Notes under the pieces: generated by a model
What the model saw: the letters and a program-made list of their open reading frames with translations, nothing else
Told to the model about the DNA's origin: nothing
Databases searched by the model: none
Translations under genes and position numbers: made by a program
In this document: piece after piece, positions 36,607 to 54,361 of the stretch
Layout of the letters: every line of letters starts with the position of its first letter
How positions within the stretch are numbered: the stretch's first letter is position 1
Assembly: GCF_025917315.1 (NCBI RefSeq)
Contig: NZ_CP080627.1
Coordinates: forward strand, 3,348,001-3,412,000
From: Halomonas qaidamensis
Lineage (GTDB): Bacteria; Pseudomonadota; Gammaproteobacteria; Pseudomonadales; Halomonadaceae
DNA length: 64,000 nucleotides
Direction: 5' to 3'

Positions 36607-36909
36607 CTAGTTGATTGGCGTGTGAACGGTCACAAGCTTGGTGCCATCCGGAAAGGTGGCTTCTACCTGCACCTCATCCACCATTTCCGCCACGCCATCC
36701 ATCACGTCGTCACGGCTAAGGATTTCACGGCCGTAGCTCATTAAATCGGCGACACTTCTGCCGTCACGGGCACCTTCAATGATTTCAAAGCTGATCAGCG
36801 CGACGGCTTCGGGGTAGTTAAGCTTTAGGCCGCGCGCTTTGCGGCGTTCGGCAAGCTGGGCAGCAGAAAACAGCAGCAGCTTGTCTTTGTCTCGTGGGGT
36901 CAGTTCCAT
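36607..36909 (-). CDS. ureA: Urease gamma subunit
   Basis: The frame runs to 36945, but GGAG five bases before the ATG at 36909 and the usual length of 100 residues favour that start ([17 protein letters not shown]). Conserved parts are [35 protein letters not shown] and MYGREIL-like [15 protein letters not shown]. It is the first gene of the ureABCEFG unit and lies behind its own sigma54-type promoter (37023-37037) rather than directly after ureD, which is displaced by 8.8 kb. Confidence 0.96.
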
Positions 36910-37022
36910 GGGGGCTCCATTGGCTTGATCAGTGGGAGCGCTCAACAGAAACGACGGTGCAGGATTCGGAACAACGCTCCCAGACTATCGAAACCGAGCA
37001 CGCCTATTTGAAGCAATACAGC

Positions 37023-37037
37023 GCAACCGCCGTACCA
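37023..37037 (-). promoter_or_regulatory. Sigma54 (RpoN) promoter of ureA
   Basis: On the minus strand the 15-mer TGGTACGGCGGTTGC matches the sigma54 consensus TGGCACG-N4-TTGC at every fixed position but one, with the invariant GG and GC correctly spaced. It lies 114 bp before the ureA start. The bases just upstream (ACCAAAATGGT) are shared with the ureD promoter. Confidence 0.75.
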
Positions 37038-37104
37038 AAATGGTGAATAAAAAAAATAGTTATTATTATTCAATAGTTTGAAAAATATCGACTTTCTCTT
37101 ATTC

Positions 37105-37160
37105 GCACCAAAAGTGCACCACGTTAATTAACCAACCCTTTAATCGCACCAAAAAAGTGC
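37105..37160 (-). promoter_or_regulatory. NtrC-like enhancer sites upstream of ureA
   Basis: Two palindromes follow the NtrC half-site rule GCAC...GTGC: GCAC-N5-GTGC at 37105-37117 and GCAC-CAAAAAA-GTGC at 37146-37160. The second has the canonical seven-base gap and an A-rich centre like the glnA enhancer. They lie about 70 and 110 bp upstream of the sigma54 promoter, a normal enhancer distance. Confidence 0.6.
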
Positions 37161-37282
37161 AACAAAACTCCCCGTTTAGCACTTACTATCAAATAGAAAT
37201 AAAACACATTACTATTTGAACGCGTCTTTTAAATAAGGCTTTTGTTGAGCCTCTATTTCTACATCAGGTTGAGACACACCAC

Positions 37283-38218
37283 GTGACCATCAGCACCCGC
37301 TATACCGTTGATCATTTTTTGGGCTACGGACGCCGATACAGTATCGATTACTGCTTTCCCATCACCTCCAACGCTGCCTGTACGCCGAAAACATCGATCG
37401 CTCAAGGACGTGTAGAAGACGTTAGCTTAGCGGCGGGTGTGGAACTTTTTATTTCTGATTTGGAGGTGCTGCGACCTTATCAATCGTTCTCTAAGGGCAA
37501 TACCGACCTGCTGATTGTGGTGATGTTAGAAGGCTGCGCACATTTCGATATTGATGGCAAAAAGCGTTGGATAACAGCAGGGGAAGCTTGCTGGCTAAGG
37601 CTGGATACAGGTTTAACGCTAAGCGCTTTTCATCCTGCTAATCAACGGCTTCGCACGCTATGCCTGTCGCTCGACGCATCAGCGATGCACGCTTGGTATG
37701 GTGCTCACATCTCATCGGCATCCCCCCATGTCTGGCAACTCAGTCCTGGGTTACAGCTAACCATCGATGAAGCGTGCCGTGCTTCCAGTAGCGCTGAGTC
37801 ACAGCGCATGCGCTTTCAGGGATTAGCACTGCAAATCATCGCCCAGGGGCTGGACTGCCGTTCGCCATACACAGCTAACAATGGCGCACTGTATCGACAG
37901 CGCTTGGCGCTAATACGCCGCTGGCTGGATGAAGAGCCGTCGTTTGACCACACGCTGCAACGCTTAGCGGATCGCGCGGCCATGAGCCCAAGTACGCTAA
38001 TGCGGCATTTCAAGATGGCTTATGGCCTAGCGCCCATCGACTATTTGCGGAAGCGTCGGCTTTCGCTAGCCCGCGAGCTGCTGCTGAGCGGCCACAGCGT
38101 TCAACAAGCGGCACATTTAAGCGGCTACCGTCATGCCAGCAACTTTATTACTGCATTCAAGAAAAACTACGGTATCTCGCCGGGTGCTTTGACAGAAAGT
38201 TCCCTTAAACGCCCCTAA
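37283..38218 (+). CDS. AraC-family transcription regulator, PchR-like
   Basis: A 311-residue regulator starting at GTG. The N-terminal ligand half (about 1-200) has the PchR/iron-regulator style stretch LLIVVMLEGCAHFDIDGKKR and a Trp/Leu-rich core. The C-terminal AraC DNA-binding domain (about 215-308) carries two helix-turn-helix units: LADRAAMSPSTLMRHFKMAYG and VQQAAHLSGYRHASNFITAFKKNYG. Such proteins sense ferric siderophore and activate uptake genes. It is divergent from ureA and lies 98 bp before the TonB receptor start region, marking the left edge of the iron block. Confidence 0.88.
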   Translation: MTISTRYTVDHFLGYGRRYSIDYCFPITSNAACTPKTSIAQGRVEDVSLAAGVELFISDLEVLRPYQSFSKGNTDLLIVVMLEGCAHFDIDGKKRWITAGEACWLRLDTGLTLSAFHPANQRLRTLCLSLDASAMHAWYGAHISSASPHVWQLSPGLQLTIDEACRASSSAESQRMRFQGLALQIIAQGLDCRSPYTANNGALYRQRLALIRRWLDEEPSFDHTLQRLADRAAMSPSTLMRHFKMAYGLAPIDYLRKRRLSLARELLLSGHSVQQAAHLSGYRHASNFITAFKKNYGISPGALTESSLKRP

Positions 38219-38286
38219 AACGAGACGGCTGACGTTTGCGCATAATCAATTGCGCGGCGGGCATAACCACCCGCCCACCATAAGTG

Positions 38287-38306
38287 GAATAATTCTCATT
38301 ATGAAA
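38287..38306 (+). promoter_or_regulatory. Candidate Fur box before the TonB receptor gene
   Basis: GGAATAATTCTCATTATGAA shows 12 of 19 matches to the Fur consensus GATAATGATAATCATTATC, with an intact right half (TCATTAT). It lies about 40 bp upstream of the receptor start, a typical repressor position. Confidence 0.55.
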
Positions 38307-38345
38307 TACTAACTATTGGCAACATCCACTTTGGAAAACCGCTCC

Positions 38346-40490
38346 ATGCCATTTTCATATCGATCAACATGCACTGCGCTTATTCTTTCCTACCCGTTGT
38401 TTGCTTTCGCTGAAGCTCCTGACGAAACATTGGACAATTTGCTCGTCACCGGTGAGCGCCTCAGCACCAGCAGTGAGGGCACTCAACGCTATACAGTTCC
38501 CGCTAGTCGCAGTGCGGTTGGGCTGTCATTAACGCCACGCGAGACCCCCCAATCGACAAGTGTTATTACTCGCCAGCAGATCGACGACCGTGCGGTACAG
38601 ACAGGCGGTGATGTTTTAGCCCAAGTACCCGGTGTTTCGCCAAGCCGAGCTGACAGTAACCGAATTAGCTATGCCGCGCGTGGCTTCTCGATACGTAGCG
38701 TTCAGTTTGACGGACTCAGCATTCCGCTCAGTGGTTTTTGGAATTTTGGCGATACCGACTGGGATGCTGCGATTTATGACCGTGTTGAAGTGGTGCGCGG
38801 GGCAACCGGTTTATTGACCGGCGCTGGTGAACCTTCGGCAAGCGTTAACTTTATTCGCAAACGTCCGTTATCCGAAGCCGCTGCGTCTGTTTCCGCAGGC
38901 ATCGGCTGTTGGGATCGTCGCCGCGCCACTGCGGATGTGTCTGTACCGTTAAGCAGCGACGGCACAACAGGGGCCCGCTTTGTCGTGGCTAAAGGTCAGA
39001 ACGATAGCTTTATCTCTCATCTCGAAGATGACCATGAGACACTTTACGGTGTTATCAGTAGCGAGCTTACCCCCGCTACTCAATTAACCGTAGGGGTTGA
39101 ATATCAGCACAACGAGACGGTTGGCGCAGGGGCCAGTGTCCCGGCTTTTTATGCTGACGGCAGCCGAACGGACTTTGACCGCAGCGCATCTAACAACACC
39201 GACTGGTCAACGTTTTACAACGAGACCACGCGCGTGTTCGCTGACCTTAGTCACCAATTGGATAACGGCTGGACGTTACGCGCCGCCGTTAGCCATAACG
39301 ATGGTAACTATGGCCTAGAGTACCTTTATCGCGGAGGTTTCCCAGACAGGGAGACAGGCCTTGGAATGTCCAGCTCCTTCTTGAATTACCGCGGCAACCG
39401 CACTCAACAAACCGTGAACGTTACAGCCGAAGGTGATTTCAGCTTATTTGGCCGCCAACATGAGCTGGGCTTTGGCTGGATGCATAACGAAGATGACTTT
39501 GAGATAAAACTGGCCACGCCAGTTGGCACACCGCCTTCCGCGGGCAGTTACTTTAATTGGCGAGACAGTGTGGTGGCCAAGCCTCAGTGGGGGGAATTCA
39601 GCAGTTCAGATAATATGCAGGTAACGCAAAGCGGTGGCTATATGGTGTCGCGCTTTTCGTTGAGTGATCCGCTTAATCTCATTCTTGGCGCACGCCTGAG
39701 CGATTGGGAATTGGATCAAACCTACTATGGGTCTGAGCGGAAATACCGATACAGCAACGAAATAACGCCTTATGCGGGCATTATTTACGATATTAATGAC
39801 TACGCCTCTGTTTATGCGAGTTATACCGAGATTTTCCAGTCTCAAAATGCTCGGTATGAGGATGGCTCTCTGCTTGACCCTATTCAGGGTAGCAGCTACG
39901 AGCTAGGCGCTAAGGCAACCCTTCTGAATGGCCAATTGGATAGCAGCATTGCACTGTTTAGAACAGAGCAAAATGGTGTGGCCGAAGCTATTCCTGGCGT
40001 TGATGTGATCGGCCAGCCTGGAACGTCCGCCCACCGCAGTGTTGATGGTAACCAGGTCAATGGCGTAGAGGTCGAATTGATTGGCGAAGTGGCCTCTGGC
40101 TGGAATGTGAGCGCCAGCTATACGCTAGCCAATGCAGAAAATTCCGACGGCGAGCGTACCAACACGACCCATCCGCGCCAACAGGTGAAACTGTTTACCA
40201 CCTACCAACTGCCGGGCGCATGGAGTGGCTTAACATTGGGCGGCGGGGCACGTTGGCAAAGCGATATTTGGCGGAACACATCTAGCCCCAATGGCCAGGT
40301 TAAGGTTGGGCAAGACGCTTACGCCGTTGCTGATCTGATGGCACGCTATCGCTTCAACGATCAATTAAGCGCGCAGTTGAACATCAATAACGTGTTTGAC
40401 AAGGACTACTACGAGCAAATTGGTTTCTACAGCCAGTATTGGCTTGGCGAACCGCGTAGTGCCATCATGTCAATCAACTGGGATTGGTGA
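38346..40490 (+). CDS. TonB-dependent ferric-siderophore receptor
   Basis: The frame begins at a TTG (38316), but the ATG at 38346 gives a 714-residue protein with a proper signal peptide (MPFSYRSTCTALILSYPLFA, cleavage near AEA). A TonB-box region (DNLLVTGER) and a plug domain (about 45-150; RETPQSTSVITRQQIDDR, RGFSIRSVQFDG, VEVVRGATGLLTGAGEPSAS) follow, then a 22-strand barrel ending in the aromatic terminus SIMSINWDW. The plug style matches FhuE/FoxA/FpvA-type receptors for hydroxamate or mixed siderophores. No siderophore biosynthesis genes are present, so it may import foreign siderophores. Seven bases separate it from the binding-protein gene. Confidence 0.94.
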   Translation: MPFSYRSTCTALILSYPLFAFAEAPDETLDNLLVTGERLSTSSEGTQRYTVPASRSAVGLSLTPRETPQSTSVITRQQIDDRAVQTGGDVLAQVPGVSPSRADSNRISYAARGFSIRSVQFDGLSIPLSGFWNFGDTDWDAAIYDRVEVVRGATGLLTGAGEPSASVNFIRKRPLSEAAASVSAGIGCWDRRRATADVSVPLSSDGTTGARFVVAKGQNDSFISHLEDDHETLYGVISSELTPATQLTVGVEYQHNETVGAGASVPAFYADGSRTDFDRSASNNTDWSTFYNETTRVFADLSHQLDNGWTLRAAVSHNDGNYGLEYLYRGGFPDRETGLGMSSSFLNYRGNRTQQTVNVTAEGDFSLFGRQHELGFGWMHNEDDFEIKLATPVGTPPSAGSYFNWRDSVVAKPQWGEFSSSDNMQVTQSGGYMVSRFSLSDPLNLILGARLSDWELDQTYYGSERKYRYSNEITPYAGIIYDINDYASVYASYTEIFQSQNARYEDGSLLDPIQGSSYELGAKATLLNGQLDSSIALFRTEQNGVAEAIPGVDVIGQPGTSAHRSVDGNQVNGVEVELIGEVASGWNVSASYTLANAENSDGERTNTTHPRQQVKLFTTYQLPGAWSGLTLGGGARWQSDIWRNTSSPNGQVKVGQDAYAVADLMARYRFNDQLSAQLNINNVFDKDYYEQIGFYSQYWLGEPRSAIMSINWDW

Positions 40491-40497
40491 GAAGCTA

Positions 40498-41475
40498 ATG
40501 ATGCTGCGCTCATTCATCACGCTGCTCATTGCGGCTGCCCCCATGACGGGGGCAGTGGCTGATGCCTCTCTCTTTCCCGTTGTCATCCAAAGCCCACTGG
40601 GAACAGCCACTATTGACGAGCCACCTCAGCGCGTCGTTACCCTTGGCGTTGGTGCTGACGATATTGCTCTTTCACTTGGTATTGTGCCGGTAGGCGTCAG
40701 CCGTGCGGAGTGGGGAGGCGATGAGGACGGCTATTGGCCATGGGTACGAGACGCTCTGGAAGCACAGGCAACGCCGCTCCCCTCGACGATTACGCAATAC
40801 CCAGAGCTGGATGTTGAAGCACTGCTCGCGCTGGAGCCGGATGTCATTTTGGCGCCTTCCAGTGGTGTTCCAGACACCATTTATGATCTGTTGTCGCCAC
40901 TGGTGCCCATTGTCGCTTACCCGGAGCGCCCTTATCTCACCTCTGTCGATGAGCAGATTGAACGTATTGCAGAAGCGCTTGGCGTGCCGGCGGAAGGTGC
41001 TGCCTTAATGCGTCATCTCGACACATCGCTGAGGACTGCAGGCGAGGCTTACCCAGGCCTTGCGGAGACCACTTTTGCTTATGTACGACCCGACCCAGCC
41101 TCTGGAAATGTCTCCGTGTATTTAGCAGATGACCCTCGCGTTGGCACGCTGACAGGCCTTGGGCTTCAGTTGTCACCAACGGTTGAAGGCCTATCACCAA
41201 GCGGCAATCACTTTGCGCACTATCTAGGGTTTGAGCATCTTCCCATGCTGGAAGATGTCGATTTAGTGGTCTCTTGGTATCACAGCGAAGAGCAGCGCGA
41301 TAGAGTGGCTGAGCTACCGCTTTTTGCGTCTTTGCCAGCCATTTCACATGGCCGCTATCTGGCGCTGACCGATCAACCATTAATCGTTGCTAGTTCTGCC
41401 GGCTCGCCACTAGCGACTCAATGGATGATCGAGCGGCTATTGCCACGCCTTGCCGAGGCAGCTGAACGGCGATGA
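40498..41475 (+). CDS. Ferric-siderophore ABC transporter periplasmic binding protein
   Basis: The longer frame from 40396 overlaps the receptor gene; the ATG at 40498 begins a signal peptide (MMLRSFITLLIAAAPMTGAVA) and gives 325 residues. FecB/FhuD-type class III features are PPQRVVTLGVGADDIALSLG, VEALLALEPDVILA and a long backbone helix between the lobes. Its stop overlaps the next permease by four bases. It delivers iron-siderophore from the TonB receptor to the permease pair. Confidence 0.92.
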   Translation: MMLRSFITLLIAAAPMTGAVADASLFPVVIQSPLGTATIDEPPQRVVTLGVGADDIALSLGIVPVGVSRAEWGGDEDGYWPWVRDALEAQATPLPSTITQYPELDVEALLALEPDVILAPSSGVPDTIYDLLSPLVPIVAYPERPYLTSVDEQIERIAEALGVPAEGAALMRHLDTSLRTAGEAYPGLAETTFAYVRPDPASGNVSVYLADDPRVGTLTGLGLQLSPTVEGLSPSGNHFAHYLGFEHLPMLEDVDLVVSWYHSEEQRDRVAELPLFASLPAISHGRYLALTDQPLIVASSAGSPLATQWMIERLLPRLAEAAERR

Positions 41476-42503: not shown

Positions 42504-42506
42504 GCC

Positions 42507-43556: not shown

Positions 43557-43832
43557 TTACGGCTGCTGGCGGAAACGCTCAAACATCGCCAGACCAAGAA
43601 ACACCATTCCCGCCGAGATGCTTAGGCAACCAAGCCATAGCGTTATTGCCAGCCCTGTGCTCCAGGTTTCCATTGCCAACCAAAGCGGCCAACCAAGTAT
43701 CGCGCTGCCCGCCCAGAACCAAGGTTTTTGTTGAGCAGGCTTAAGGCCACAACGGCGTCGATGGCGGCTATCCGATAGCGCAATCAACACAAAGCCAAGT
43801 GCGCTGAGTGTCAGAATCGTGAGGAGCATCAT
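43557..43832 (-). CDS. DUF3325-like small membrane protein
   Basis: A 91-residue protein with three membrane helices and an Arg-rich loop (DSRHRRRCG). Its position at the end of a DUF3649-PepSY-DUF3325 trio is the usual one in iron-uptake loci. Function is unknown; association with ferric-siderophore reduction or uptake is inferred from neighbours. It overlaps the PepSY gene by four bases. Confidence 0.75.
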   Translation of the reverse strand: MMLLTILTLSALGFVLIALSDSRHRRRCGLKPAQQKPWFWAGSAILGWPLWLAMETWSTGLAITLWLGCLSISAGMVFLGLAMFERFRQQP

Positions 43833-45376
43833 GACGCCACCTGAATAGTCTGTACACGGGTGCTCGCTTTTTTAGCGGCTCGTCTCATTTGCCATACTAT
43901 GATCAGCGCGCTGACCAAACACATCAGGTCAACGCTAACACGCTGCCAATCACCTTCGGCAAGATCACCTAGAACACTATAGGAAGGAACCAAGAGATTC
44001 AGTATTGGCAAGCAAAGCAACATGATAACGGTCAGTGTTAACTGCTCCCACCATGCCTGCGAGGCCGAGCGCCTGAAGACAGCGTGTAGCAACGCGAGCA
44101 GCCAGGCGGCAAAGAAAAAATGGATTTCCCATTGGGCACGCCCACTAAGCGCCACCGGTAAAAGTCGGTTGCTGGCTAAAAAGACCAACACGGCAATCGG
44201 CATGCCGGCCAGCGTGGCTATATTAAGCCGCTCGACACACCAGATCCCCACCACACTGCCCTTCTTGTGCTTACGCTTTGACGTCCATAGCAATAGCCCG
44301 GTTGCCACCATGCCACACCCAGCAGCGCCCAACGCAAAATAGATCCAGCGCATACCCCAGTCGGCAAAACGTCCTGCATGTAACCCCACCATGACGCCGT
44401 GTGCTTGTTCATCAACACGTTGCGACTGCGTTGCTGCTAACAACGCGCCCGAACTTGCTTCATAGATACGTTGTGGGCGGTGTGCGGATAACGCCTCGTA
44501 AGCACTCTGCCAAACTACGACACGTGCGCCCGCATCGCCAGGGTGGCTGACCCTCAGGGACTGCACCGGCTTGTGCCAATGCGATTCAGCATCACCGACC
44601 AGTTCACTTAGAGCATGTAACGCTGCAGGCTGCCCCGTGGCTGAGTCAGAGAGGGGAAAGGCATGCAGTTCACTGGTCGCTTGGCGACGCGCGTCAGCAT
44701 CGGGAAACGCGTGTTCTACTCCCCAAGGCATATAGAGCGACATGAGCGTTATCAAGCCGGTATAGGTAATCATTAGCTGAAAAGGCAGCGTTAACACAGA
44801 AAATGCATTGTGAGCATCTAGCCAGCTACGGGCGCCCTTCTGGGGTCGGAAAGTAAAAAAATCCCGCAGAATTTTTTTATGGGTTATCACGCCGCTAATG
44901 ATTGCCACGAACATCATCATGGTGGCGATACCAATGATCCAGCGGCCATAAACGGCGGGGAGGTGATGCAATTGAAAATGGAATCGGTAGAAAAAATCAC
45001 CCCCACGCGTTTCACGCGGGGTTACCAACGACAAAGTGGTTGGGTCAAGCACCAACTGCTCTCTCCCATCCTCCCCAAACCAAACGGCTGTCGAGACCGA
45101 CATGCGCTCATTAGGAAAGGTAATCTGCCAGCTTCTCGCTGTTGAAGCGTGTTCAGCAAGATAGTGCTGCCAGTAATCAGCCAGACGTCGGTTATCCCAC
45201 TCAGCGTTCGCGGCGACACTCGGTAGCTCGGGCTGCATCCATAACGAGATACTCTCTTTGAAGTAACTCAGTGTTCCCGTCAGAAAAACGGCAAACAGCA
45301 GCCAAGCAGCTAACAAGCCGCACCATGTGTGCAGCTGAGCCATATTACGCCTCACGCTGCGCTTAGTGGATGCCAT
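43829..45376 (-). CDS. PepSY-associated transmembrane protein, iron-regulated (PiuB-like)
   Basis: A 515-residue membrane protein with four to five helices. It begins LHTWCGLLAAWLLFAVFLTG with the early HTW...G motif of PepSY_TM proteins. A periplasmic PepSY segment follows, then paired His-containing helices (DAHNAFSVLTLPFQLMITYTG; VGLHAGRFADWGMRWIYF). The family is thought to reduce ferric siderophores at the inner membrane using membrane haem or flavin. It is the middle gene of a three-gene unit (overlap of 14 bp with the DUF3649 gene). Confidence 0.88.
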   Translation of the reverse strand: MASTKRSVRRNMAQLHTWCGLLAAWLLFAVFLTGTLSYFKESISLWMQPELPSVAANAEWDNRRLADYWQHYLAEHASTARSWQITFPNERMSVSTAVWFGEDGREQLVLDPTTLSLVTPRETRGGDFFYRFHFQLHHLPAVYGRWIIGIATMMMFVAIISGVITHKKILRDFFTFRPQKGARSWLDAHNAFSVLTLPFQLMITYTGLITLMSLYMPWGVEHAFPDADARRQATSELHAFPLSDSATGQPAALHALSELVGDAESHWHKPVQSLRVSHPGDAGARVVVWQSAYEALSAHRPQRIYEASSGALLAATQSQRVDEQAHGVMVGLHAGRFADWGMRWIYFALGAAGCGMVATGLLLWTSKRKHKKGSVVGIWCVERLNIATLAGMPIAVLVFLASNRLLPVALSGRAQWEIHFFFAAWLLALLHAVFRRSASQAWWEQLTLTVIMLLCLPILNLLVPSYSVLGDLAEGDWQRVSVDLMCLVSALIIVWQMRRAAKKASTRVQTIQVAS

Positions 45377-45644
45377 AGTTAGCCACCAATAGAAGGCCGC
45401 AAGCGGCTAGACCGATAGCCCCCCAAAGGCGAATCAAACTCGGCGCGATGAATGACCAGGTCGCCACGCCCGCCCAAATAATGAAGCTCCCCATCATGCC
45501 GATACGCAGAGACATCATGATATCTAGCGGTAAGCCAAGCGCTGCCACCGAGAACAGTGCAGCGACTATATAGCCGCCAAGCGTCGCGGCCAGGATGCGT
45601 AAGATAAGCAGCCAATACGAGGAGGGTAAAACGTTGAGCAACAT
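45363..45644 (-). CDS. DUF3649-like small membrane protein
   Basis: A 93-residue protein with three hydrophobic helices (ILAATLGGYIVAALFSVAAL; LRIGMMGSFIIWAGVATWSF; LWGAIGLAACGLLLVANY). It matches the DUF3649 partner that precedes PepSY_TM proteins in iron loci. It is the first gene of the minus-strand iron unit, behind the inverted repeat at 45679-45705. Role unknown. Confidence 0.75.
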   Translation of the reverse strand: MLLNVLPSSYWLLILRILAATLGGYIVAALFSVAALGLPLDIMMSLRIGMMGSFIIWAGVATWSFIAPSLIRLWGAIGLAACGLLLVANYGIH

Positions 45645-45678
45645 GGTGCATCTCGGTGCAGGTCACAAACCACCACTT

Positions 45679-45705
45679 TAATGCAAAAGGTTTTCATTTG
45701 CATTA
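45679..45705 (-). promoter_or_regulatory. Perfect inverted repeat, Fur-type operator candidate
   Basis: TAATGCAAA (45679-45687) and TTTGCATTA (45697-45705) are perfect 9-bp inverted arms around nine bases. On the minus strand the core TGCAAATGAAAA resembles the 5' half of gammaproteobacterial Fur boxes. It is 35 bp upstream of the DUF3649 start. No other promoter for this iron unit is seen. Confidence 0.5.
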
Positions 45706-45741
45706 GTGGAGATAACTTATTTAGCACCTGCTGCACAACGT

Positions 45742-46626
45742 TTAGGTTAACCAAATGCGCGGCGTGTGGGCGGCACGTGAGATCCAGCGCGGGCGTAATA
45801 AGTGCCAAGCCTGTTCACACAGCGCCCAAGCTTCATTCCGGGAGTTTCCTAGGTAACGTAATAACAGTACGCCCTGGCGAACGGTGACCGCCCAACGCGG
45901 GTTGTCCGGCAGCGCGTCGCGTAGTTCGTCAATTGCGGCACCGGCATCTTCTAAGCCAACTGCCCACAGCGTGGCTTGCACCGTGGCGCCCCCCTGCCCC
46001 CAGCGCCCGTTAAAACGCGGATGAGCAGGGTCTAAGGGCTGGCGTTCAAGCCACAGCGGTTTGCCGTCCAGGGTTAAACGAAAGTGCTGTTCAATACGGC
46101 CGGTTACATAGGGAAGTTCACTGGCGGGGCGGCCCAACGCCATGATCTCCCAGCCCAGGCAGCGGGCGCTGCCATGCAACGCAATGTGCGTTCGCTGAGT
46201 ACCTTTGGAGCCATCAAAGGCGATCGTTTCTTGAGGAAGCCACTCAAGGATGCCGCCATCTTCCACGTTCAGTTCGGTATCTTGGTTCCAGGCGACGCCT
46301 TGGCTATCAGCTTTATATAGTTTGTTGGCTGCAGGCGTGGTGAGCAGCGCATGTGCGTCACGCTCGATATGGGCACGGATCGTCAGTGCGTCACCACTGA
46401 CCAAGCCACCAGGCGGGTGCAGCACATAGACATGGCAGGCCTCTGTGCTGCCTTCGGGGTAAAACGGGCGTTGCACTCTCAGTGGCCCTTGGTGGCGCGC
46501 CTGCACCAACCGAGTGATGCCATTGCGGTTAGCAAAACGCAGCGCCAGCGATGCCGCCCAGAGGCGCTCTTCGTCAAAGCGGTGACCTGAGCCAGCAGCA
46601 GGTGTCGCGAGTTCACACAGCATCAT
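45742..46626 (-). CDS. ureD: Urease accessory protein UreD (UreH)
   Basis: A 294-residue scaffold protein of the urease maturation complex. Recognisable are HPPGGLVSGDALTIRAHIE, ALLTTPAANKLYKADS, LEWLPQETIAFDGS and the LGWEIMALGRPA block. Two tandem ATG codons at 46626 and 46623 can start. It is normally directly before ureA, but here the iron block of 8.4 kb separates them, and ureD has its own sigma54-type promoter. Its 3' end lies 37 bp from the iron unit's inverted repeat. Confidence 0.95.
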   Translation of the reverse strand: MMLCELATPAAGSGHRFDEERLWAASLALRFANRNGITRLVQARHQGPLRVQRPFYPEGSTEACHVYVLHPPGGLVSGDALTIRAHIERDAHALLTTPAANKLYKADSQGVAWNQDTELNVEDGGILEWLPQETIAFDGSKGTQRTHIALHGSARCLGWEIMALGRPASELPYVTGRIEQHFRLTLDGKPLWLERQPLDPAHPRFNGRWGQGGATVQATLWAVGLEDAGAAIDELRDALPDNPRWAVTVRQGVLLLRYLGNSRNEAWALCEQAWHLLRPRWISRAAHTPRIWLT

Positions 46627-46668
46627 GGGCGCATTTACTTCCTGTTAATAAGCATTTCATTTTCAAAT

Positions 46669-46683
46669 GCAAGGAATGCGCCA
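46669..46683 (-). promoter_or_regulatory. Sigma54 (RpoN) promoter of ureD
   Basis: Minus-strand TGGCGCATTCCTTGC has TGG, C and TTGC of the sigma54 consensus at exact spacing. It lies 43 bp before the ureD start and is followed upstream by CCAAAATGGTGAA, the same 13-mer that lies next to the ureA promoter. Confidence 0.7.
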
Positions 46684-46759
46684 AAATGGTGAAAAATGTG
46701 AATACGCTGCTAAAGCGCCCGTATAAGGTGAAAATAGGCAATCTAACGATGCCTATTGC

Positions 46760-46804
46760 GCACCAAAAAGTATCAAAAAAAGGCCAGTCGCACCGAAATG
46801 GATC
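46760..46804 (-). promoter_or_regulatory. Degenerate NtrC-like sites upstream of ureD
   Basis: GCAC-N6-GTAT (46760-46773) and GCAC-N7-GATC (46790-46804) keep the left NtrC half-site and an A-rich centre but have weaker right halves. They sit 75-120 bp upstream of the ureD sigma54 promoter, between it and the end of the cyclase gene. Confidence 0.35.
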
Positions 46805-46806
46805 AT

Positions 46807-48174
46807 CTACGCGTTTTTAACCACTACCCGATCACGTCCACCGCGCTTTGCTTGGTAAAGCGCTTGGTCAGCGCGCTGAATAGCTCGCTGATAATCAGGG
46901 TGGCCATCGTGGAGTGTTACGCCAACGCTGACGGTCACATTAAGCAGCGTATCGGCGGTGGCTAGCATAGGTTCTTTAGCGACTGCCCGTCGTAGACGCT
47001 CGGCAAATAGTCGGCTGCCATCCTGGTCGGTATCCACCAATACAATCAAAAACTCTTCGCCGCCCATACGAAAAACATAATCACCGCCACGAGTAGAACG
47101 ATCGAGAATACTCGCTACCTGCTGCAATACATTGTCGCCGGCGTCATGGCCATGGGTATCGTTAATCGACTTAAAGTGGTCAATATCTACCATCAGCAGG
47201 GCAAAGCGTTTTTCCGAATGGCGGGCAATTTCAATTTCCCGTCCCAGCACCACTGAAAGAAACTTACGATTCAACAGTCGCGTCAGGCTGTCGCGTCCTG
47301 CTTCTAGCCCTGAAGCGCGCTCTAGCACGTCGTCTAGCAGCATAAGAATAGTGCGTGTTGCATCGCGAATATCACTTAGGGCTGTGAGCCGTTGGCCCAT
47401 GTCATTCTGATCAAGTGCAGCCAGCCACTCATGATCTACTTGGCGAATATGGCGCGAAATCGTGGCGATTTCTGGCGAGCCTTCAAAGGCATGGCAGGCT
47501 TTGTGAAAATACCACAGACCAAACTCTGACTTGGAAAGCTTGGGTAGCATTGCGGTTTCCTGTTGCGCGGCAACAGCAAACATCAGCGCATTTTCCCAGT
47601 TTAATAACGCCGAGCGCTGACGCTCGCGTTCGTCTCCAATATTCTGGGTAAGGGAAAACAGCTTGTACGCTTCTTCGGTGCGCGCATTGCGATCATTGGC
47701 GACGGAGTAGGCGTGGCTCATGATTTCCATGGCCATATCGATATGATCCGAGACGTAGACACAGGCTACCCCTGGCGACAGTGGCGCGGTAACCGTGGCA
47801 TTAATATGTTGGTAAAACGCCTGCTTTAGCTGCCTTGCTCCGTTCAGCACTAGGTTAACGGGAATATCAACGCGGGCATGCACTTGCCCCACTTTCTCCT
47901 GTTGTTCTACCAAGGCATTAAAGTCGACATGCTCAACGGCAAACATGGCCTTCAGCCAACGCCGCATGGAGGGATTTAAACGCTCCCTTACTTGGTCATT
48001 GGAGAGAAAAAGCGACGCGTGAGGGTCTTCTAACATTACCCCATAGAAATGGTCCGCAAAGCGGTCGCAGTGGTACTCTACCAAGGTTTCCACTGCTTGG
48101 CGCAACACTAGTGGCGTGCGCTCTAAAAGCACTTGCCATTCGGCAGCGAGCTGATGTTTATCTTTATAGCGCAT
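46807..48174 (-). CDS. Globin-coupled diguanylate cyclase (DosC-like)
   Basis: The frame extends to 48273, but the ATG at 48174 gives 455 residues that begin at the globin domain. The N-terminal sensor globin (about 10-160) has the proximal-His segment VGQVHARVDIPVNLVLNGAR, the same as in DosC/YddV. A middle helical domain (about 165-295) and a GGDEF domain (about 300-455) follow, with MGGEEF as catalytic signature preceded by an RxxD inhibitory site (RGGD) five residues upstream. The product should synthesise c-di-GMP in response to O2, NO or CO bound to haem. It lies on the minus strand between the urt operon and ureD, separate from both. Confidence 0.93.
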   Translation of the reverse strand: MRYKDKHQLAAEWQVLLERTPLVLRQAVETLVEYHCDRFADHFYGVMLEDPHASLFLSNDQVRERLNPSMRRWLKAMFAVEHVDFNALVEQQEKVGQVHARVDIPVNLVLNGARQLKQAFYQHINATVTAPLSPGVACVYVSDHIDMAMEIMSHAYSVANDRNARTEEAYKLFSLTQNIGDERERQRSALLNWENALMFAVAAQQETAMLPKLSKSEFGLWYFHKACHAFEGSPEIATISRHIRQVDHEWLAALDQNDMGQRLTALSDIRDATRTILMLLDDVLERASGLEAGRDSLTRLLNRKFLSVVLGREIEIARHSEKRFALLMVDIDHFKSINDTHGHDAGDNVLQQVASILDRSTRGGDYVFRMGGEEFLIVLVDTDQDGSRLFAERLRRAVAKEPMLATADTLLNVTVSVGVTLHDGHPDYQRAIQRADQALYQAKRGGRDRVVVKNA

Positions 48175-48313
48175 TGCGCACCCAATTATTATTACGAAAA
48201 CAAGCCATATTACACGCAAAATAATAGAGCCAATACGCACACAGCTCAGAGTTTTTAATAATAAACTCGCCACTTTAAGTTAATTAAAGGGCGAGCAACA
48301 GGCTGTGGATAAC

Positions 48314-49021: not shown

Positions 49022-49857
49022 CAGGCAACCTCCTCGTCGTCCGCACCCAAATACACCTCAACCACGTTGGGGTCGCTTGAAACCTGATCCATACTGCCCT
49101 CTGCCAGTACGCTGCCTTGGTGCAACACGGTCACTTTACGGGCAATAGAACGTACAAAGCCCATATCATGCTCTACCACGACCACCGACTGCTTACCCGC
49201 AAGGCCCGTCAACAGCTCTGCGGTACGCTCCATCTCCTGTTCCGTCATCCCGGCTACGGGTTCATCTACCAGCAGCAGACGCGGGCGCTGCATTAACAGC
49301 ATGCCAATTTCCAGCCACTGCTTTTGGCCGTGGGAAAGAATCCCTGCTGGCTGGTAGCGCAGCTCGGTCAGGCCAATCGTTTCAAGTACCTCATTGATAC
49401 GGTCTTTAATTTCACCAGTCATGCGAGCAGTTAGCGTGGGGAAAATACGCTTGTCAGCGGCCATCGCCAACTCCAGGTTTTCAAACACGCTCAGCGCTTC
49501 AAATACCGTGGGCTTTTGGAACTTACGACCAATCCCCAAGCTGGCGATATCCGGTTCACTCATTTGCAGTAGATTATGACGGCTACCAAACCACACGCTG
49601 CCTTCGTTGGGGCGTGTTTTACCAGTAATGATATCCATCATGGTCGTTTTACCGGCCCCGTTAGGGCCGATAATGCAACGCAGTTCACCATCATCAATGG
49701 TCAGGTTTAAGTTGTTGATTGCCTTGAAGCCATCGAAGCTCACCGAGACATCTTCCATATACAGAATCGGGCCATGACGCACATCTACCGGTGAGGCCTG
49801 AGGGGCCATAAAATCAAACACCCGATCCCGCGTGGTTAGCGATTGCAGCAAGCTCAT
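49021..49857 (-). CDS. urtD: Urea ABC transporter ATPase UrtD
   Basis: A 278-residue ABC ATPase. Walker A is GPNGAGKTTMMD, the signature LSHGQKQWLEIGMLL is the S-H-G-Q variant typical of UrtD/LivG proteins, and Walker B is LLLVDEPVAGMTEQE. It pairs with UrtE on the cytosolic side. The N-terminal extension (about 25 residues before ILYMEDVSVSFDG) is common in UrtD. It overlaps urtC by four bases. Confidence 0.96.
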   Translation of the reverse strand: MSLLQSLTTRDRVFDFMAPQASPVDVRHGPILYMEDVSVSFDGFKAINNLNLTIDDGELRCIIGPNGAGKTTMMDIITGKTRPNEGSVWFGSRHNLLQMSEPDIASLGIGRKFQKPTVFEALSVFENLELAMAADKRIFPTLTARMTGEIKDRINEVLETIGLTELRYQPAGILSHGQKQWLEIGMLLMQRPRLLLVDEPVAGMTEQEMERTAELLTGLAGKQSVVVVEHDMGFVRSIARKVTVLHQGSVLAEGSMDQVSSDPNVVEVYLGADDEEVA

Positions 49858-50999
49858 GCGGTAGCCTCCTTCGGCAAGGTCTCGGATTTTTTGCGGCGTT
49901 TTAGGTGCAGCAACAACCCCGCCACGCCTTTAGGTAGAAACACGGTGACCAAGACAAACAGCGCGCCTAGGGCAAACAGCCACGCATCAGGCATTACACC
50001 CGTAAAAATCGTTTTGGCATAGTTGACTAAGATCGCACCGATAACCGCCCCATAAAGCGTGGCACGGCCACCCAGTGCCACCCACAGCACAATTTCAATC
50101 GAGAAAATCGGCGAGAACTCACTGGGGTTGATAATCCCTACCTGAGGAACATAAAGCGCGCCAGCCAAGCCTGCCAGCATGGCGGAAACTACGAATACAA
50201 ATAGCTGGAAGCGTTCGACCCGATAGCCAATAAACCGCGTGCGGGCTTCGGCGTCACGGGTTGCCACACACACCCGGCCTAATTTACTGGTAACAATCGC
50301 TCGGCACAGGATATAACCCAGTGCCAATGCAACGCCGGTGGCAATAAATAGACCTAAGCGAGTGTCGTTGCTGCGGAGGTTGAAGCCCAGCAGCTCGCGA
50401 AAATCGGTTAAACCGTTGTTGCCACCAAAGCCCATCTCATTGCGGAAGAACGCCAGCATCAGGGCAAAGGTCAGCGCCTGGGTAATAATCGATAGATACA
50501 CCCCAGTGACCCGCGATCGAAAGGCCAAAAAGCCGAATACCAAGGCCAATAACCCAGGGGCTAACAGCACCATAGCAAACGCAAACCAGGCCATATCAAA
50601 GCCGAGCCAGTACCAGGGCAGGCTTTCCCAGCTGAGAAACACCATAAAATCCGGTAGTACCGGGTCGCCATATGTACCGCGGTCACCGATCTGGCGCATC
50701 AGGTACATGCCCATGGCATAACCGCCAATGGCAAAAAACGCCCCGTGACCCAGGCTCAGAATGCCTAAATAGCCCCATACCAAATCCACCGCCACTGCCA
50801 GTAGCGCATAGCTTAAGTACTTGCCGAACAGGTTCACGGTGTAAGCATTGACATGTAGCGAGTGACCTTGAGGTACTGCGAGATGCAGTACTGTCACGAT
50901 CAACAGGGCGGCAAACAGCACGCCAAGAAAGATCTGCGTGGCTCGCTCACTAAACGGGCGAGTTAGCCAAAACTGGCTTGAAGATGATTGCGTCATCAT
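49854..50999 (-). CDS. urtC: Urea ABC transporter permease UrtC
   Basis: A 381-residue LivM-type permease with about ten helices. Landmarks are DLVWGYLGILSLGHGAFFAI, GGYAMGMYL, FRSRVTGVYLSIITQALTFA and ATRDAEARTRFIGYRVERF. It forms the membrane channel with UrtB. Two adjacent ATG codons start the gene; three bases separate it from urtB. Confidence 0.96.
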   Translation of the reverse strand: MMTQSSSSQFWLTRPFSERATQIFLGVLFAALLIVTVLHLAVPQGHSLHVNAYTVNLFGKYLSYALLAVAVDLVWGYLGILSLGHGAFFAIGGYAMGMYLMRQIGDRGTYGDPVLPDFMVFLSWESLPWYWLGFDMAWFAFAMVLLAPGLLALVFGFLAFRSRVTGVYLSIITQALTFALMLAFFRNEMGFGGNNGLTDFRELLGFNLRSNDTRLGLFIATGVALALGYILCRAIVTSKLGRVCVATRDAEARTRFIGYRVERFQLFVFVVSAMLAGLAGALYVPQVGIINPSEFSPIFSIEIVLWVALGGRATLYGAVIGAILVNYAKTIFTGVMPDAWLFALGALFVLVTVFLPKGVAGLLLHLKRRKKSETLPKEATA

Positions 51000-51002
51000 A
51001 GG

Positions 51003-52616
51003 TTAGCCCTCCGCAGCCCGGCCCTTCTGCGGGAAGAGTCCACGCGGGCGTTTTTGAATAAACAGAATGATGAACACCAGGACAATAATCTTGGCCAGCA
51101 CCGCACCTGCCCAGGGCTCCAGCACTTGGTTAATAATGCCCAGGGAAAGCCCAGCCACCAAGGTGCCCCAAAGATTACCCACGCCACCGAAAACGACGAC
51201 CATGAAGGAATCAATAATGTAGTTCTGGCCCAGGTTGGGGCCAACATTGGTCAGCTGTGATAACGCAACGCCAGCCAAGCCTGCGACGCCAGACCCTAAC
51301 GCGAAGGTCATAATATCGACCCGGGTGGCACGGATACCCATAGAGCGTGCCATGGCACGATTTTGGGTCACCGCGCGCACTTCAAGCCCTAGGCGCGTGC
51401 GGCGCATAATCAACATCAGCGCGGCAAACACCACCAGTGCAAACCCGAGTACAAACATACGGTTAAGGGTCAGCGACAGTGCATCGTTAATCACTAAGGA
51501 GCCGCTCATCCACTCTGGCGTTATGACCGTACGGTTTAGCGGTGAAATCACCGTTCGCACCAGCTGCTGTAAAATCAGGCTAATACCGAACGTCGCCAGC
51601 AACGTTTCCAACGGGCGCCCCTTCAGGAATTGAATGACACCCCGCTCAATGGCAATGCCCACAAGCGCGGCCACTAAAAAGCCTGCAGGAATCGATAGAA
51701 TTAGCGCCAATCCAGGCTGGCCGGGCAACAGTTGCTGCATCATCCAAGTGGTATAAGCGCCCAGCATGATCAGCTCGCCGTGGGCCATATTAATGACCCC
51801 CATCACACCAAAGGTAATGGCCAGGCCAATCGCTGCTAACACCAGTACCGAGCCAAGCGAAAGACCGAAATAGAGCGTTTCCAGACCACGATTAATTTTC
51901 AGCTGCTGTTCGATACCTGCCAACGCCCCAGCGGCGGCGTTGGCTATCACCGGATCGTCACTATTCGCTGCGCGACTTAGCGCCACGCGGGCGCGTGGGT
52001 GAAGGCTACCCGTAAGCGCGTCTATACCGGCCATCTCTCCCTGTTCGGTACGATAAATTGCCACTGCTTGAGTTAAGCGAGTACGCACGTACTCATCATC
52101 GGCTTCAGCAATCAATGGCGCTAGCGCTTCGGCCAGTTCGCCGTCTACTTCACCAAGTAAGCGGTCAGCGGAAGTGCGGCGGCGCTCTACATCGGGTGAA
52201 TACAGATCAACAACGGCAATAGCGCTGCGTAGCTGGTTGCGCAAATTGTTATTAATTCCGATACGATCCAGATCGCGACGAGACATCTCGCCAAGCGGCT
52301 CGTTAGTCAACGCATCGGCCACCGGCCAGTCGCGGCCACGGTTATCGAGCACCACAACAAAACGACCGTCGTCAGTGCGCTGTAAGCGGCCATCTAGCAA
52401 CGCCTGCAGCCAGTCACGAGCGCGTTCGTCGTCGCTTTGTACAATTGCGGTAATCGCCTCACCCTTTGCAGGAAAGGAACGTACATCCAGCGCTTCAAGT
52501 AACTCAAGCGCAGCGGCATCGTCAGCATCAACAGCAGCGCTTGTTTGTGCCTGGGCGGTGACTGTGATGCTTAACAACAGCAGGCACAGCAACCTGAAGG
52601 AAAGGAAACGCCTCAT
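51003..52616 (-). CDS. urtB: Urea ABC transporter permease UrtB with N-terminal periplasmic domain
   Basis: A 537-residue protein. A signal peptide (MRRFLSFRLLCLLLLSITVTAQA) and about 220 residues of helical, HEAT-like periplasmic sequence precede a LivH-type permease (about 255-530): GVMGVINMAHGELIMLGAY, ERGVIQFLKGRPLETLLATF, EVRAVTQNRAMARSMGI and FGGVGNLWGTLVAGL. The extra N-terminal domain is normal for UrtB and distinguishes it from amino-acid permeases. A short hairpin with T-tract before it may reduce readthrough from urtA. Confidence 0.95.
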   Translation of the reverse strand: MRRFLSFRLLCLLLLSITVTAQAQTSAAVDADDAAALELLEALDVRSFPAKGEAITAIVQSDDERARDWLQALLDGRLQRTDDGRFVVVLDNRGRDWPVADALTNEPLGEMSRRDLDRIGINNNLRNQLRSAIAVVDLYSPDVERRRTSADRLLGEVDGELAEALAPLIAEADDEYVRTRLTQAVAIYRTEQGEMAGIDALTGSLHPRARVALSRAANSDDPVIANAAAGALAGIEQQLKINRGLETLYFGLSLGSVLVLAAIGLAITFGVMGVINMAHGELIMLGAYTTWMMQQLLPGQPGLALILSIPAGFLVAALVGIAIERGVIQFLKGRPLETLLATFGISLILQQLVRTVISPLNRTVITPEWMSGSLVINDALSLTLNRMFVLGFALVVFAALMLIMRRTRLGLEVRAVTQNRAMARSMGIRATRVDIMTFALGSGVAGLAGVALSQLTNVGPNLGQNYIIDSFMVVVFGGVGNLWGTLVAGLSLGIINQVLEPWAGAVLAKIIVLVFIILFIQKRPRGLFPQKGRAAEG

Positions 52617-52653
52617 GGGGTTCTTCCTTTGGTTATATTAGAAACAGTGATCT

Positions 52654-52677
52654 AAAAAAGGGAGGTAGCGTGCTCCC
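52654..52677 (-). terminator. Weak hairpin with T6 between urtA and urtB (attenuator)
   Basis: Minus strand: GGGAG-N8-CTCCC followed by TTTTTT. A five-pair GC stem with a U-run would stop part of the transcripts after urtA, giving more binding protein than permease, as is common in ABC operons. Confidence 0.45.
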
Positions 52678-52717
52678 CCGCCACTCAACGTTTAGCCAAG
52701 CAGCAAGGGATCTTCTT

Positions 52718-54070
52718 TTACTCAGCGAGGGCCGCTTCGGCTTCTTCTGCTGCGGTGCTACCACCACACGAGCCGTTCACCACGTTGAAGTTGCCGCACT
52801 CCATGGGCTTGCGCCAATCGGCAATCAAATCACGAGAGCCAGGTAAGTAGTCAGACCACGCATCGCCCGCCACCGTAGAAGGCGTTTGCCAGACGATATC
52901 GAACTGGCCGTTGTCTTGAACTTCACCAATCAGTACTGGCTTGGTGATGTGATGGTTGGGCATCATCGCCGCATAGCCGCCGGACAGGTTAGGTACGGTG
53001 ACGCCGATAATCGCATCTTTCACCGCATCCACGTCGGTAGTTCCTGCTTTACGCACCGCTTCGGCCCACATGTTGAAACCAATGTAGTGCGCTTCCATGG
53101 GGTCATTGGTGACCGCTTCTTCGTCGCCGGTGTATTCAATCCATGCGTCGATAAAGTCATAGTTAGCGTCGGTATCCACACTCATAAAGTAGTTCCACGC
53201 CGCTAAGTGGCCGACCAGCGGGGCCGTATCGATACCGGAAAGCTCCTGCTCACCCACCGAGAAGGCAATGACCGGAATATCAGCGGCATCAATGCCTTGG
53301 TTGGCAAGTTCGCGATAGAACGGAACGTTGGCATCACCGTTAATGGTTGAGATCACCGCTGTTGGTTTGCCCTCTTCACCGAAGCGGCGCAGTTCCGCCA
53401 CGATGTTCTGCCAATCGGAGTGGCCAAACGGCGTGTAGTTGACCATGATGTCTTCTTCAGACACACCATGCTCATCTTTCAAGAACGCTTCTAAAATACG
53501 GTTGGTGGTACGTGGATAAACGTAGTCGGTACCTATCAGCGCAAAACGTTCAATGCCCACTTGATTGATCAGGTATTCCACCGCAGGAATAGCCTGTTGG
53601 TTTGGCGCAGCACCGGTATAGAAGACGTTTTCAGAGGACTCTTCACCTTCATACTGCACCGGGTAGAACAGCAGGCCGTTAAGTTCTTCCACTACCGGCA
53701 GTACCGCCTTACGGGAAACGGAGGTCCAGTTACCAAAGATGACGTCGACCTCTTCTTGCGCTAGAAGCTCTCTAGCGCGTTCAGCAAATAGCGGCCAGTT
53801 AGAGGCTGGATCAACAACAACCGCTTCAAGCTGGCGTCCAAGGAGGCCACCCGCTTCATTCTGCTGCTCAATGAGCATTTCAACGGTATCTTTCAGAGCT
53901 GACTCACTAATCGCCATGGTGCCTGAAAGCGAGTGGAGAATACCGACCTTGATCGGATCGTCATCTTGAGCGATAGCCTGGGCACTGGCACCCATAACAG
54001 CGGCGGCAATTAAGGCAGTGGCGAAACGGCCAACGATACGAGGGTGTGTCTTGCGCTGCAATGTGGTCAC
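52718..54070 (-). CDS. urtA: Urea ABC transporter periplasmic binding protein UrtA
   Basis: A 450-residue receptor starting at GTG with AAGGAGG five bases upstream. The signal peptide reads AFATALIAAAVMGASAQAIA-like in its hydrophobic core. UrtA marks are KVGILHSLSGTMAISESALK, RELLAQEEVDVIFGNWTSVS, NGLLFYPVQYEGEESS and GTDYVYPRTTNRI, the pattern that separates UrtA/FmdD from amino-acid receptors. It binds urea at micromolar levels in characterised homologues. It is the first gene of urtABCDE, behind a sigma54-type promoter. Confidence 0.96.
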   Translation of the reverse strand: MTTLQRKTHPRIVGRFATALIAAAVMGASAQAIAQDDDPIKVGILHSLSGTMAISESALKDTVEMLIEQQNEAGGLLGRQLEAVVVDPASNWPLFAERARELLAQEEVDVIFGNWTSVSRKAVLPVVEELNGLLFYPVQYEGEESSENVFYTGAAPNQQAIPAVEYLINQVGIERFALIGTDYVYPRTTNRILEAFLKDEHGVSEEDIMVNYTPFGHSDWQNIVAELRRFGEEGKPTAVISTINGDANVPFYRELANQGIDAADIPVIAFSVGEQELSGIDTAPLVGHLAAWNYFMSVDTDANYDFIDAWIEYTGDEEAVTNDPMEAHYIGFNMWAEAVRKAGTTDVDAVKDAIIGVTVPNLSGGYAAMMPNHHITKPVLIGEVQDNGQFDIVWQTPSTVAGDAWSDYLPGSRDLIADWRKPMECGNFNVVNGSCGGSTAAEEAEAALAE

Positions 54071-54192
54071 TTGAACCTCCTTGCGCCCCTATGGCGGGGC
54101 TCGTTATTTGAGCTTCGCGGCCAAGGACTCCCGTTATGTAACGTGGGTACGGCCATTACGGGGCTTGGTGCATCCACTAGCTCCTAGCTTTT

Positions 54193-54207
54193 GCAAGGTT
54201 TGCGCCA
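54193..54207 (-). promoter_or_regulatory. Sigma54 (RpoN) promoter of urtA
   Basis: Minus-strand TGGCGCAAACCTTGC keeps TGGC, C and TTGC of the sigma54 consensus with exact spacing and differs from the ureD promoter only in the spacer. It lies 123 bp before the urtA start. Confidence 0.75.
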
Positions 54208-54283
54208 CACTACAAAAAGAAACATTAAAAAAAATAAAATCAAACGGTTAGCTTTAAAAAAAGCAGCCCAATCTACAGGCATC

Positions 54284-54361
54284 GCACTATCGTGGCGCGC
54301 CAGTATTCAAAAAATGCACGCTGTTTATGCACCACAACGGCACCTCGCACCAATAGAGCGC
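54284..54361 (-). promoter_or_regulatory. NtrC-like enhancer sites upstream of urtA
   Basis: GCAC-TATCGTG-GCGC (54284-54298) and GCAC-CAATAGA-GCGC (54347-54361) both have the seven-base NtrC gap with one mismatch in the right half-site. They lie about 80 and 140 bp upstream of the sigma54 promoter. Confidence 0.5.

Follow-up and report, generated by a model that had tools for sequence, protein, structure and literature searches.

Control of urease and urea transport by the nitrogen regulator NtrC is established in other bacteria. In the available passages of the respective reports, urea use by Pseudomonas stutzeri A1501 needs NtrC and a putative NtrC site lies before ureE (PMC8443478), and both ure and urt genes of Burkholderia cenocepacia H111 are down in an ntrC mutant (PMC5491218). 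The corresponding promoters of E. coli, as far as described in the part consulted, combine the −24/−12 form TGGCACnnTTnTTGC recognized with RpoN and the NtrC box TGCACCAnnnTGGTGCA (PMC8743547); the orp genes of Desulfovibrio represent sigma54 promoters assisted by integration host factor (IHF), with the orp2 IHF site AAGATGTTTGATT (PMC3897727). Here we consider the urea genes of Halomonas qaidamensis, contained in a 64-kb stretch (the window, G000:C1:3348001-3412000) of a 3.82-Mb genome. These genes fall into three pieces, urtABCDE, ureD and ureABC(EFG), the last two separated by an iron-uptake island. In titles and abstract openings of the open-licence literature, we found neither NtrC control of urea genes in Halomonas nor this split. 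Our results suggest that each piece is under its own NtrC-activated sigma54 promoter, that the three are switched together, and that the ureA promoter goes with the island and was moved by recombination. We assign this reading a probability of about 0.76.

Predicted sigma54 promoters and the breaks in the urea operon

An earlier note had pointed out one sigma54-type 15-mer before each of the three pieces. All three are indeed exact and correctly spaced (a TGGC-like −24 and a TTGC −12 element), and they are the sole exact matches to TGGYRCR-N4-TTGC in the window, where shuffling yields 0.81 on average and reached three in 2 of 100 shuffles. The comparison of genomes is more telling. We searched 58 genomes and took urea loci from 40 of them (34 of the same genus and six outgroups). 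The same-genus set comprised 37 genomes including our own (G000-G036); G009 and G030, which gave no urtA, ureD or ureA matches, were left out, so that 35 remained. The ureD and ureA loci came from 34 same-genus genomes besides the window. Sites were ranked by a simple weighted score devised here, with a cut of 25 chosen post hoc, when the data had already been seen. A urtA site scoring 26-27 is present in all 35 genomes and a ureD site scoring 25-26 in 33. In the two that miss the latter, G013 (21) and G032 (22, with a urtA upstream stretch covering 389 bp), ureD follows urtE by at most 3 bp, as it does in the outgroup G055 (22). A ureA site scoring 25-26 occurs only in G000, G012 and G021, exactly those genomes that have the island between ureD and ureA. 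In the 32 unsplit genomes, ureD and ureA have kept their adjacency (gap of 18-58 bp) and the best score in the 600 bp upstream of ureA is at most 24. Three further split genomes, Vreelandella alkaliphila, V. venusta and Halomonas llamarensis, all have a ureA site with a score of 26.

At the urtE-ureD junction, the ureD site is still there in six genomes (G016, G018, G022, G025, G026 and G034) in which ureD lies only 184-343 bp after urtE; the ureD promoter therefore needs no inserted gene. The distance exceeds 1.1 kb in the remaining same-genus loci with both genes, and some 18-36 kb separate urtA from ureD in G004, G012, G017 and G021. The urea genes thus come as one unit (the fused G013 and G032, and the outgroup G055), two units (30 genomes) or three units (three genomes), and every open junction has a predicted sigma54 promoter in front of ureD or ureA, whereas none of the closed ones has. 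Since, among the relatives compared, the predicted switch is present where the operon is broken and absent where it is whole, the pieces probably still co-operate. The co-regulation of the split urea genes by NtrC and sigma54 that the earlier note proposed is, as a prediction, well supported by this comparison (35/35, 33/35, and for ureA 3/3 split versus 0/32 unsplit).

Upstream of these sites we found NtrC-like elements, in a form somewhat different from the one claimed at the outset, namely a GCAC-N5/7-GTGC dyad or a one-mismatch variant 45-140 bp upstream of each piece. The dyads exist before ureA (perfect) and urtA (one mismatch), at 68-154 bp from the −24 box, and not before ureD, where the best ones carry two mismatches (e.g. 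46790-46804); full dyads do precede ureD in some relatives. A more general feature is the half-site GGTGC on the coding strand. It outnumbers its complement GCACC in urtA promoters (100 versus 4; shuffle mean 12.8), in ureD promoters (70 versus 8; 12.6; n=33, the fused G013 and G032 being left out and V. alkaliphila, V. venusta and H. llamarensis lying outside the ureD loci compared) and in ureA promoters (17 versus 0; 1.3). Shuffles give 0.04-0.05 GGTGC pairs at a distance of 31-32 bp, whereas 21 such pairs were counted at ureD and 11 at urtA; the significance of such comparisons with shuffles is overstated because the compared promoters are related to one another. Among ureD pairs, 27 of 44 are spaced 30-32 bp, and five of the six ureA promoters have a pair spaced 30 bp. 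The shorter GTGC falls at −86..−76 in 31/35 urtA, 24/33 ureD and 6/6 ureA promoters, and at −117..−107 in 25/35, 25/33 and 5/6; a third copy at −149..−139 is found in 33/35 urtA promoters, in 4/33 at ureD and in 2/6 at ureA. The corresponding numbers for two control stretches are 0/35, 4/33 and 0/6 (−66..−56), and 6/35, 12/33 and 0/6 (−101..−91).

The three promoters had been thought to share one design. Our analysis revealed two, because an IHF-like box is common to urtA and ureA and missing at ureD. Scored with the IHF consensus YAANNNNTTGATW and at most one mismatch, the box is present in 32/35 urtA promoters, at exactly −43 in 31 of them (shuffles 6.7, maximum 13), and at −43 in 6/6 ureA promoters (shuffles 2.24, maximum 5). 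Among ureD promoters it occurs in 4/33, which is the shuffle level (mean 4.35), and none was found at ureD of this genome. What ureA and ureD do share, as noted earlier, is the 13-mer CCAAAATGGTGAA (37035-37047 and 46681-46693), which has no third copy in the whole genome; it overlaps the −24 TGG instead of abutting the promoter. At ureD it is contained in a 17-mer resembling the E. coli NtrC box, scored over 14 letters (PMC8743547). This 17-mer over the −24 element reaches 12/14 in 28/33 ureD promoters and 11-12 in the six ureA promoters; at the matching place, 19/35 urtA promoters reach 11-12/14 with other letters, and our own urtA 8. Part of the match is forced, since the −24 sequence TGGCGCA itself resembles the half-site TGGTGCA, and the surplus beyond the forced part is a conserved left half, CACCA. 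When NtrC is abundant, such a dyad may restrain the promoter.

From the positions and conservation of these elements and their correlation with the break, we infer NtrC binding, activation and co-expression along the following lines. The three pieces would each form a transcription unit with its own promoter. Under nitrogen limitation, phosphorylated NtrC would occupy pairs of half-sites about 80 and 112 bp upstream (with a third about 144 bp upstream at urtA) and contact the sigma54 polymerase at −24/−12. A bend by IHF at −43 would help at urtA and ureA, and the three units would switch on jointly. In some species, the iron-uptake island lies between the ureD stop codon and the ribosome-binding region of ureA. 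By moving with the island through recombination in the flanking ure genes, the ureA promoter would have kept urease in the nitrogen regulon.

Chance matches and other activators

Several observations weigh against the reading of three NtrC-activated sigma54 promoters. The exact pattern is not enriched genome-wide (38 matches versus 37 for a reversed control). The ureD of this genome has no dyad with zero or one mismatch within 260 bp. The GGTGC spacings at urtA are mostly 18, 45 and 63 bp, with 31-32 bp in 11/109 pairs, and in H. llamarensis a single GGTGC is left before ureA. Window-wide, NtrC-box-like 17-mers are close to chance expectation (1 versus 0.5 at 12/14, and 6 versus 4.4 at 11/14). 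The six outgroups, which were kept out of the promoter statistics, have urtA scores of 23 (G037), 25 (G040), 27 (G042), 27 (G043), 25 (G053) and 24 (G055), so that the last is without a strong urtA site. No such site accompanies the amt gene found here, taken as a positive control, or, judged by eye, the adjoining PII-like gene. A one-mismatch dyad, the only kind present at urtA, also occurs at five of the other 34 sigma54 matches outside the urea genes and ntrB-ntrC, in every case inside an open frame. In G030, ntrC is present and urea genes are absent.

Could the three matches be due to chance, with the units run by sigma70 promoters or read-through? With one mismatch allowed, the window holds 19 matches against 15.06 expected, which is chance level; because this count and the genome-wide one both equal chance, the motif alone proves nothing. 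There is also a weak sigma70-like match (9/12, 37091-37062 on the minus strand) just upstream of the ureA site. However, the evidential weight is in position and conservation, not in the pattern count. From 38 matches in 2 x 3.82 Mb, only about 0.001 would be expected in a 200-bp upstream region on a single strand, the sites are conserved at fixed positions in 35 genomes, and the promoter correlates with the break. Moreover, the sigma70 scan fell below its shuffles (5 matches versus 13.0). We consider chance exceedingly improbable.

A different possibility is that the sigma54 promoters are real but driven by an enhancer-binding protein other than NtrC. Since 31 proteins or segments encoded in the genome match the NtrC model, there is room for another such protein, and the half-site is one-sided, as is evident from the urtA counts, whereas the E. 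coli box is given as symmetric in the part of the report consulted (PMC8743547). On the other hand, GGTGC is the right half of that same box, and urea genes of other genera are described as NtrC-controlled in the passages available (PMC8443478, PMC5491218). The genome itself also speaks for NtrC. Apart from those at the urea genes, the genome has 35 exact sigma54 matches, and we looked for dyads within 250 bp upstream of each. A perfect GCAC-N7-GTGC dyad accompanies only one of them, 105 bp upstream; this one lies before ntrB-ntrC. Both products of that pair match their models, NR(II) and NR(I), over cut-off, and a single sigma54 gene is present (rpoN, PF04552 at G000:C1:2205215-2205694). Across genomes, rpoN was found in 37/38 and ntrC over cut-off in 37/38. 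An activator other than NtrC thus seems to us quite improbable.

Several other lines were followed and not used. Co-absence of NtrC and urea genes offers too few cases, with G009 lacking both and G030 only the latter. The composite pattern GTGC-N66-96-TGGYNYR-N4-YTGC gives 52 matches versus 14 for the reversed control, but we do not treat this as enrichment, because the control differs in word make-up and the inspected matches (23, from 30 loci) are all in frames open over more than 300 bases. The genome-wide count of GCAC-N7-GTGC (87 versus 55 places) suffers from the same weakness of its control. Eight stretches picked by eye among the dyads listed (L103-L110) have no convincing downstream sigma54 site, the best scores being 17-24. 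One of them (L107, G000:C1:2712300-2714600, dyad at about 1407) lies between divergent open reading frames, one of which resembles a transglutaminase on visual inspection; again, no good sigma54 site follows the dyad. In B. cenocepacia, a transglutaminase-like cluster is reported under NtrC and sigma54 in the available passage (PMC5491218). Elsewhere in the genome (L173, G000:C1:2532600-2535500), a gene pair is preceded on the minus strand, at about 2360-2545 of the locus, by a sigma54-like site TGGCATATAAACTGC, a perfect NtrC-like dyad GCACTGTTTTAGTGC and a further GGTGC. One gene of the pair resembles that for mannosyl-3-phosphoglycerate phosphatase (TIGR01486 over cut-off), the other that for glucosyl-3-phosphoglycerate synthase, with the best model scoring below its cut-off. 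Here, NtrC control of a nitrogen-free osmolyte is possible.

History of the split and of the ureA promoter

The whole island (37283-45644) separates ureD from ureA, and its 93-residue open reading frame and PepSY_TM gene are co-directional with ureD. The split genomes do not form one clade. On trees of 36 rows (35 same-genus genomes and G055), the split state needs three changes for each of urtA, ureD and ureABC, and the approximately unbiased test against one split clade gives p of 3e-121, 6e-6 and 2e-32, respectively. On all three trees G012 and G021 have unsplit sisters, G006 and G004; G000 has the unsplit sister G023 on the urtA tree and is unresolved on the ureD tree. Unsplit G004 is 94-95% identical to split G021 in urtA and ureD and 85% in ureA; compared with split G000, it is 82-83% identical in urtA and ureD and 96% in ureA. 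These breaks of identity at ureA point to recombination at the ureD-ureA junction. The six ureA promoters share 48-64/66 letters with each other and at most 42/66 with any ureD or urtA promoter, and the ureA promoter is likely to have travelled with the island through recombination.

Alternatively, the split may be ancestral in part of the genus, with vertical inheritance of the ureA promoter and repeated loss of island and promoter, each time closing the gap. The island order is the same in G000, G021, V. alkaliphila, V. venusta and H. llamarensis, the ureA promoters are homologous, the ureA of G004 looks as if this genome had once been split or recombined, and on the ureABC tree the neighbours of G000 are G004 and G021. 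However, many exact losses would be required, since G012 and G021 on all trees and G000 on the urtA tree have unsplit sisters, and the breaks of identity at ureA point instead to recombination. We therefore regard an ancestral split as rather unlikely and prefer transfer of the promoter with the island.

As to the source of the ureA promoter, derivation from the resident ureD promoter by copying appears unlikely, since the two agree in only 28-33/66 letters in the three genomes with both. An origin from siderophore genes is not supported either. Kushneria avicenniae has AraC and TonB genes, with no urease gene found in the 8-kb flanks, and the region upstream of its AraC gene resembles the AraC-ureA stretch no more than expected by chance. 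The nearest relatives are ureD promoters with a TGGTAC core (35-42/66; G007, G016, G018, G025 and G035); others reach up to 38/66 (ureD) and 40/66 (urtA). This is only suggestive of a derivation from the ureD type of those five lineages.

The AraC of the island itself is 93-95% identical to those of V. alkaliphila, V. venusta and H. llamarensis, which suggests that the window belongs to their group. In G012, the island is shorter, with AraC and TonB recognized, and its AraC is only about 60% identical; for these reasons, it may represent an earlier or independent copy, though its ureA promoter is homologous. At the start of the island, just past the ureD stop codon, lies a palindrome-like stretch, TGCAAATGAAAACCTTTTGCATTA (45679-45702), which is nearly unchanged in G021, V. 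alkaliphila, V. venusta and H. llamarensis; the G012 island lacks it in its first bases. The stretch is perhaps an iron-regulator site. A bolder and more tentative idea, to which we give somewhat less than even odds, is that the iron island together with a ready-made NtrC/IHF/sigma54 promoter recombines as one module into the ureD-ureA junction of different species, and that the dyad over −24 of ureD and ureA makes NtrC action self-limiting. If so, the module would break the urease operon while rewiring its severed half into the nitrogen regulon.

The locus and its relation to known systems

The features of the locus are collected in Table 1. The globin-coupled diguanylate cyclase starts 40 bp after urtE, and a match to it lies upstream of ureD in 13/34 same-genus loci (one of them partial). 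Because of this short distance and its recurrence in relatives, the gene may be co-transcribed with urt.

Table 1. Genes and predicted regulatory elements of the urea locus and the inserted island (window coordinates)
Feature	Position	Strand	Basis or remark
urtA, urea ABC transporter substrate-binding protein	52718..54070	-	TIGR03407 over cut-off
urtB	51003-52616	-	TIGR03409 over cut-off
urtC	49854-50999	-	TIGR03408 over cut-off
urtD	49021-49857	-	TIGR03411 over cut-off
urtE	48314-49021	-	TIGR03410 over cut-off
Protoglobin, DosC-like middle domain and GGDEF protein, between urtE and ureD	46807..48273	-	Pfam
ureD	45742..46626	-	PF01774
Island, first part: 93-aa open reading frame (45363-45644) and PepSY_TM protein (43829-45376)	43829..45644	-	same place in L050, L127, L128, L129
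Island, second part: permeases	41472-42503 and 42507-43556	+	
Island, second part: binding protein	40396-41475	+	
Island, second part: siderophore receptor (FauA-like)	38316-40490	+	
Island, second part: AraC regulator	37283-38218	+	profile matches; synteny
ureA	36607-36909	-	NCBIfam over cut-off
ureB	36248-36583	-	NCBIfam over cut-off
ureC	34536-36251	-	NCBIfam over cut-off
ureE	33781-34329	-	downstream of ureC
ureF	33069-33887	-	downstream of ureC
ureG-like GTPase	32412-33044	-	downstream of ureC
urtA sigma54-type −24/−12 site, TGGCGCAAACCTTGC	54193..54207	-	exact TGGYRCR-N4-TTGC
ureD sigma54-type site, TGGCGCATTCCTTGC	46669..46683	-	exact TGGYRCR-N4-TTGC
ureA sigma54-type site, TGGTACGGCGGTTGC	37023..37037	-	exact TGGYRCR-N4-TTGC
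urtA putative enhancer	54284..54361	-	one-mismatch N7 dyads 54347-54361, 54316-54330, 54284-54298; 31 and 32 bp apart
ureD putative enhancer	46760..46804	-	GGTGC half-sites 46790-46794, 46760-46764; 30 bp apart
ureA putative enhancer	37105..37160	-	perfect N7 dyad 37146-37160, perfect N5 dyad 37105-37117
urtA IHF-like box, TAACCGTTTGATT	54238..54250	-	43 bp before −24 TGG
ureA IHF-like box, CAAACTATTGAAT	37068..37080	-	43 bp before −24 TGG; 1 mismatch
NtrC-box-like 17-mer over ureD −24, TTCACCATTTTGGCGCA	46677..46693	-	contains the 13-mer; 12/14 consensus letters, best in window
NtrC-box-like 17-mer over ureA −24, TTCACCATTTTGGTACG	37031..37047	-	11/14

Overall, what is new here is a gradation among natural genomes from the fused through the two-unit to the three-unit state, each open junction having a matching predicted promoter. 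How broken operons stay co-regulated is usually inferred from distant comparisons; here, 35 close relatives could be compared. Since these relatives span the one-, two- and three-unit states with matching promoters, the cost of the split and the gain of the promoter are directly testable in cultivable halophiles.

How do these features compare with the known systems? In P. stutzeri and B. cenocepacia, the role of NtrC was shown with mutants, whereas the Halomonas case is predicted from sequence; the available passages on those two species mention no three-unit split with a promoter per break. Compared with the E. coli promoters, as described in the part consulted, the −24/−12 form is the same, but here the right half-site dominates and an NtrC-box-like dyad covers the −24 element of ureD and ureA. 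As in the available description of Desulfovibrio orp, an IHF-like box lies between enhancer and promoter, and the box of the relatives, TAAGTGTTTGATT, resembles AAGATGTTTGATT; in our case, the role of IHF is a predicted one and ureD is without the box. Operon splitting by gene insertion has reportedly been described by Price et al. Likewise, in Halomonas a conserved gene block is cut by inserted genes; the difference is that here the severed half is preceded by a predicted promoter belonging to the parent regulon, and that this promoter is homologous between lineages that do not form a clade.

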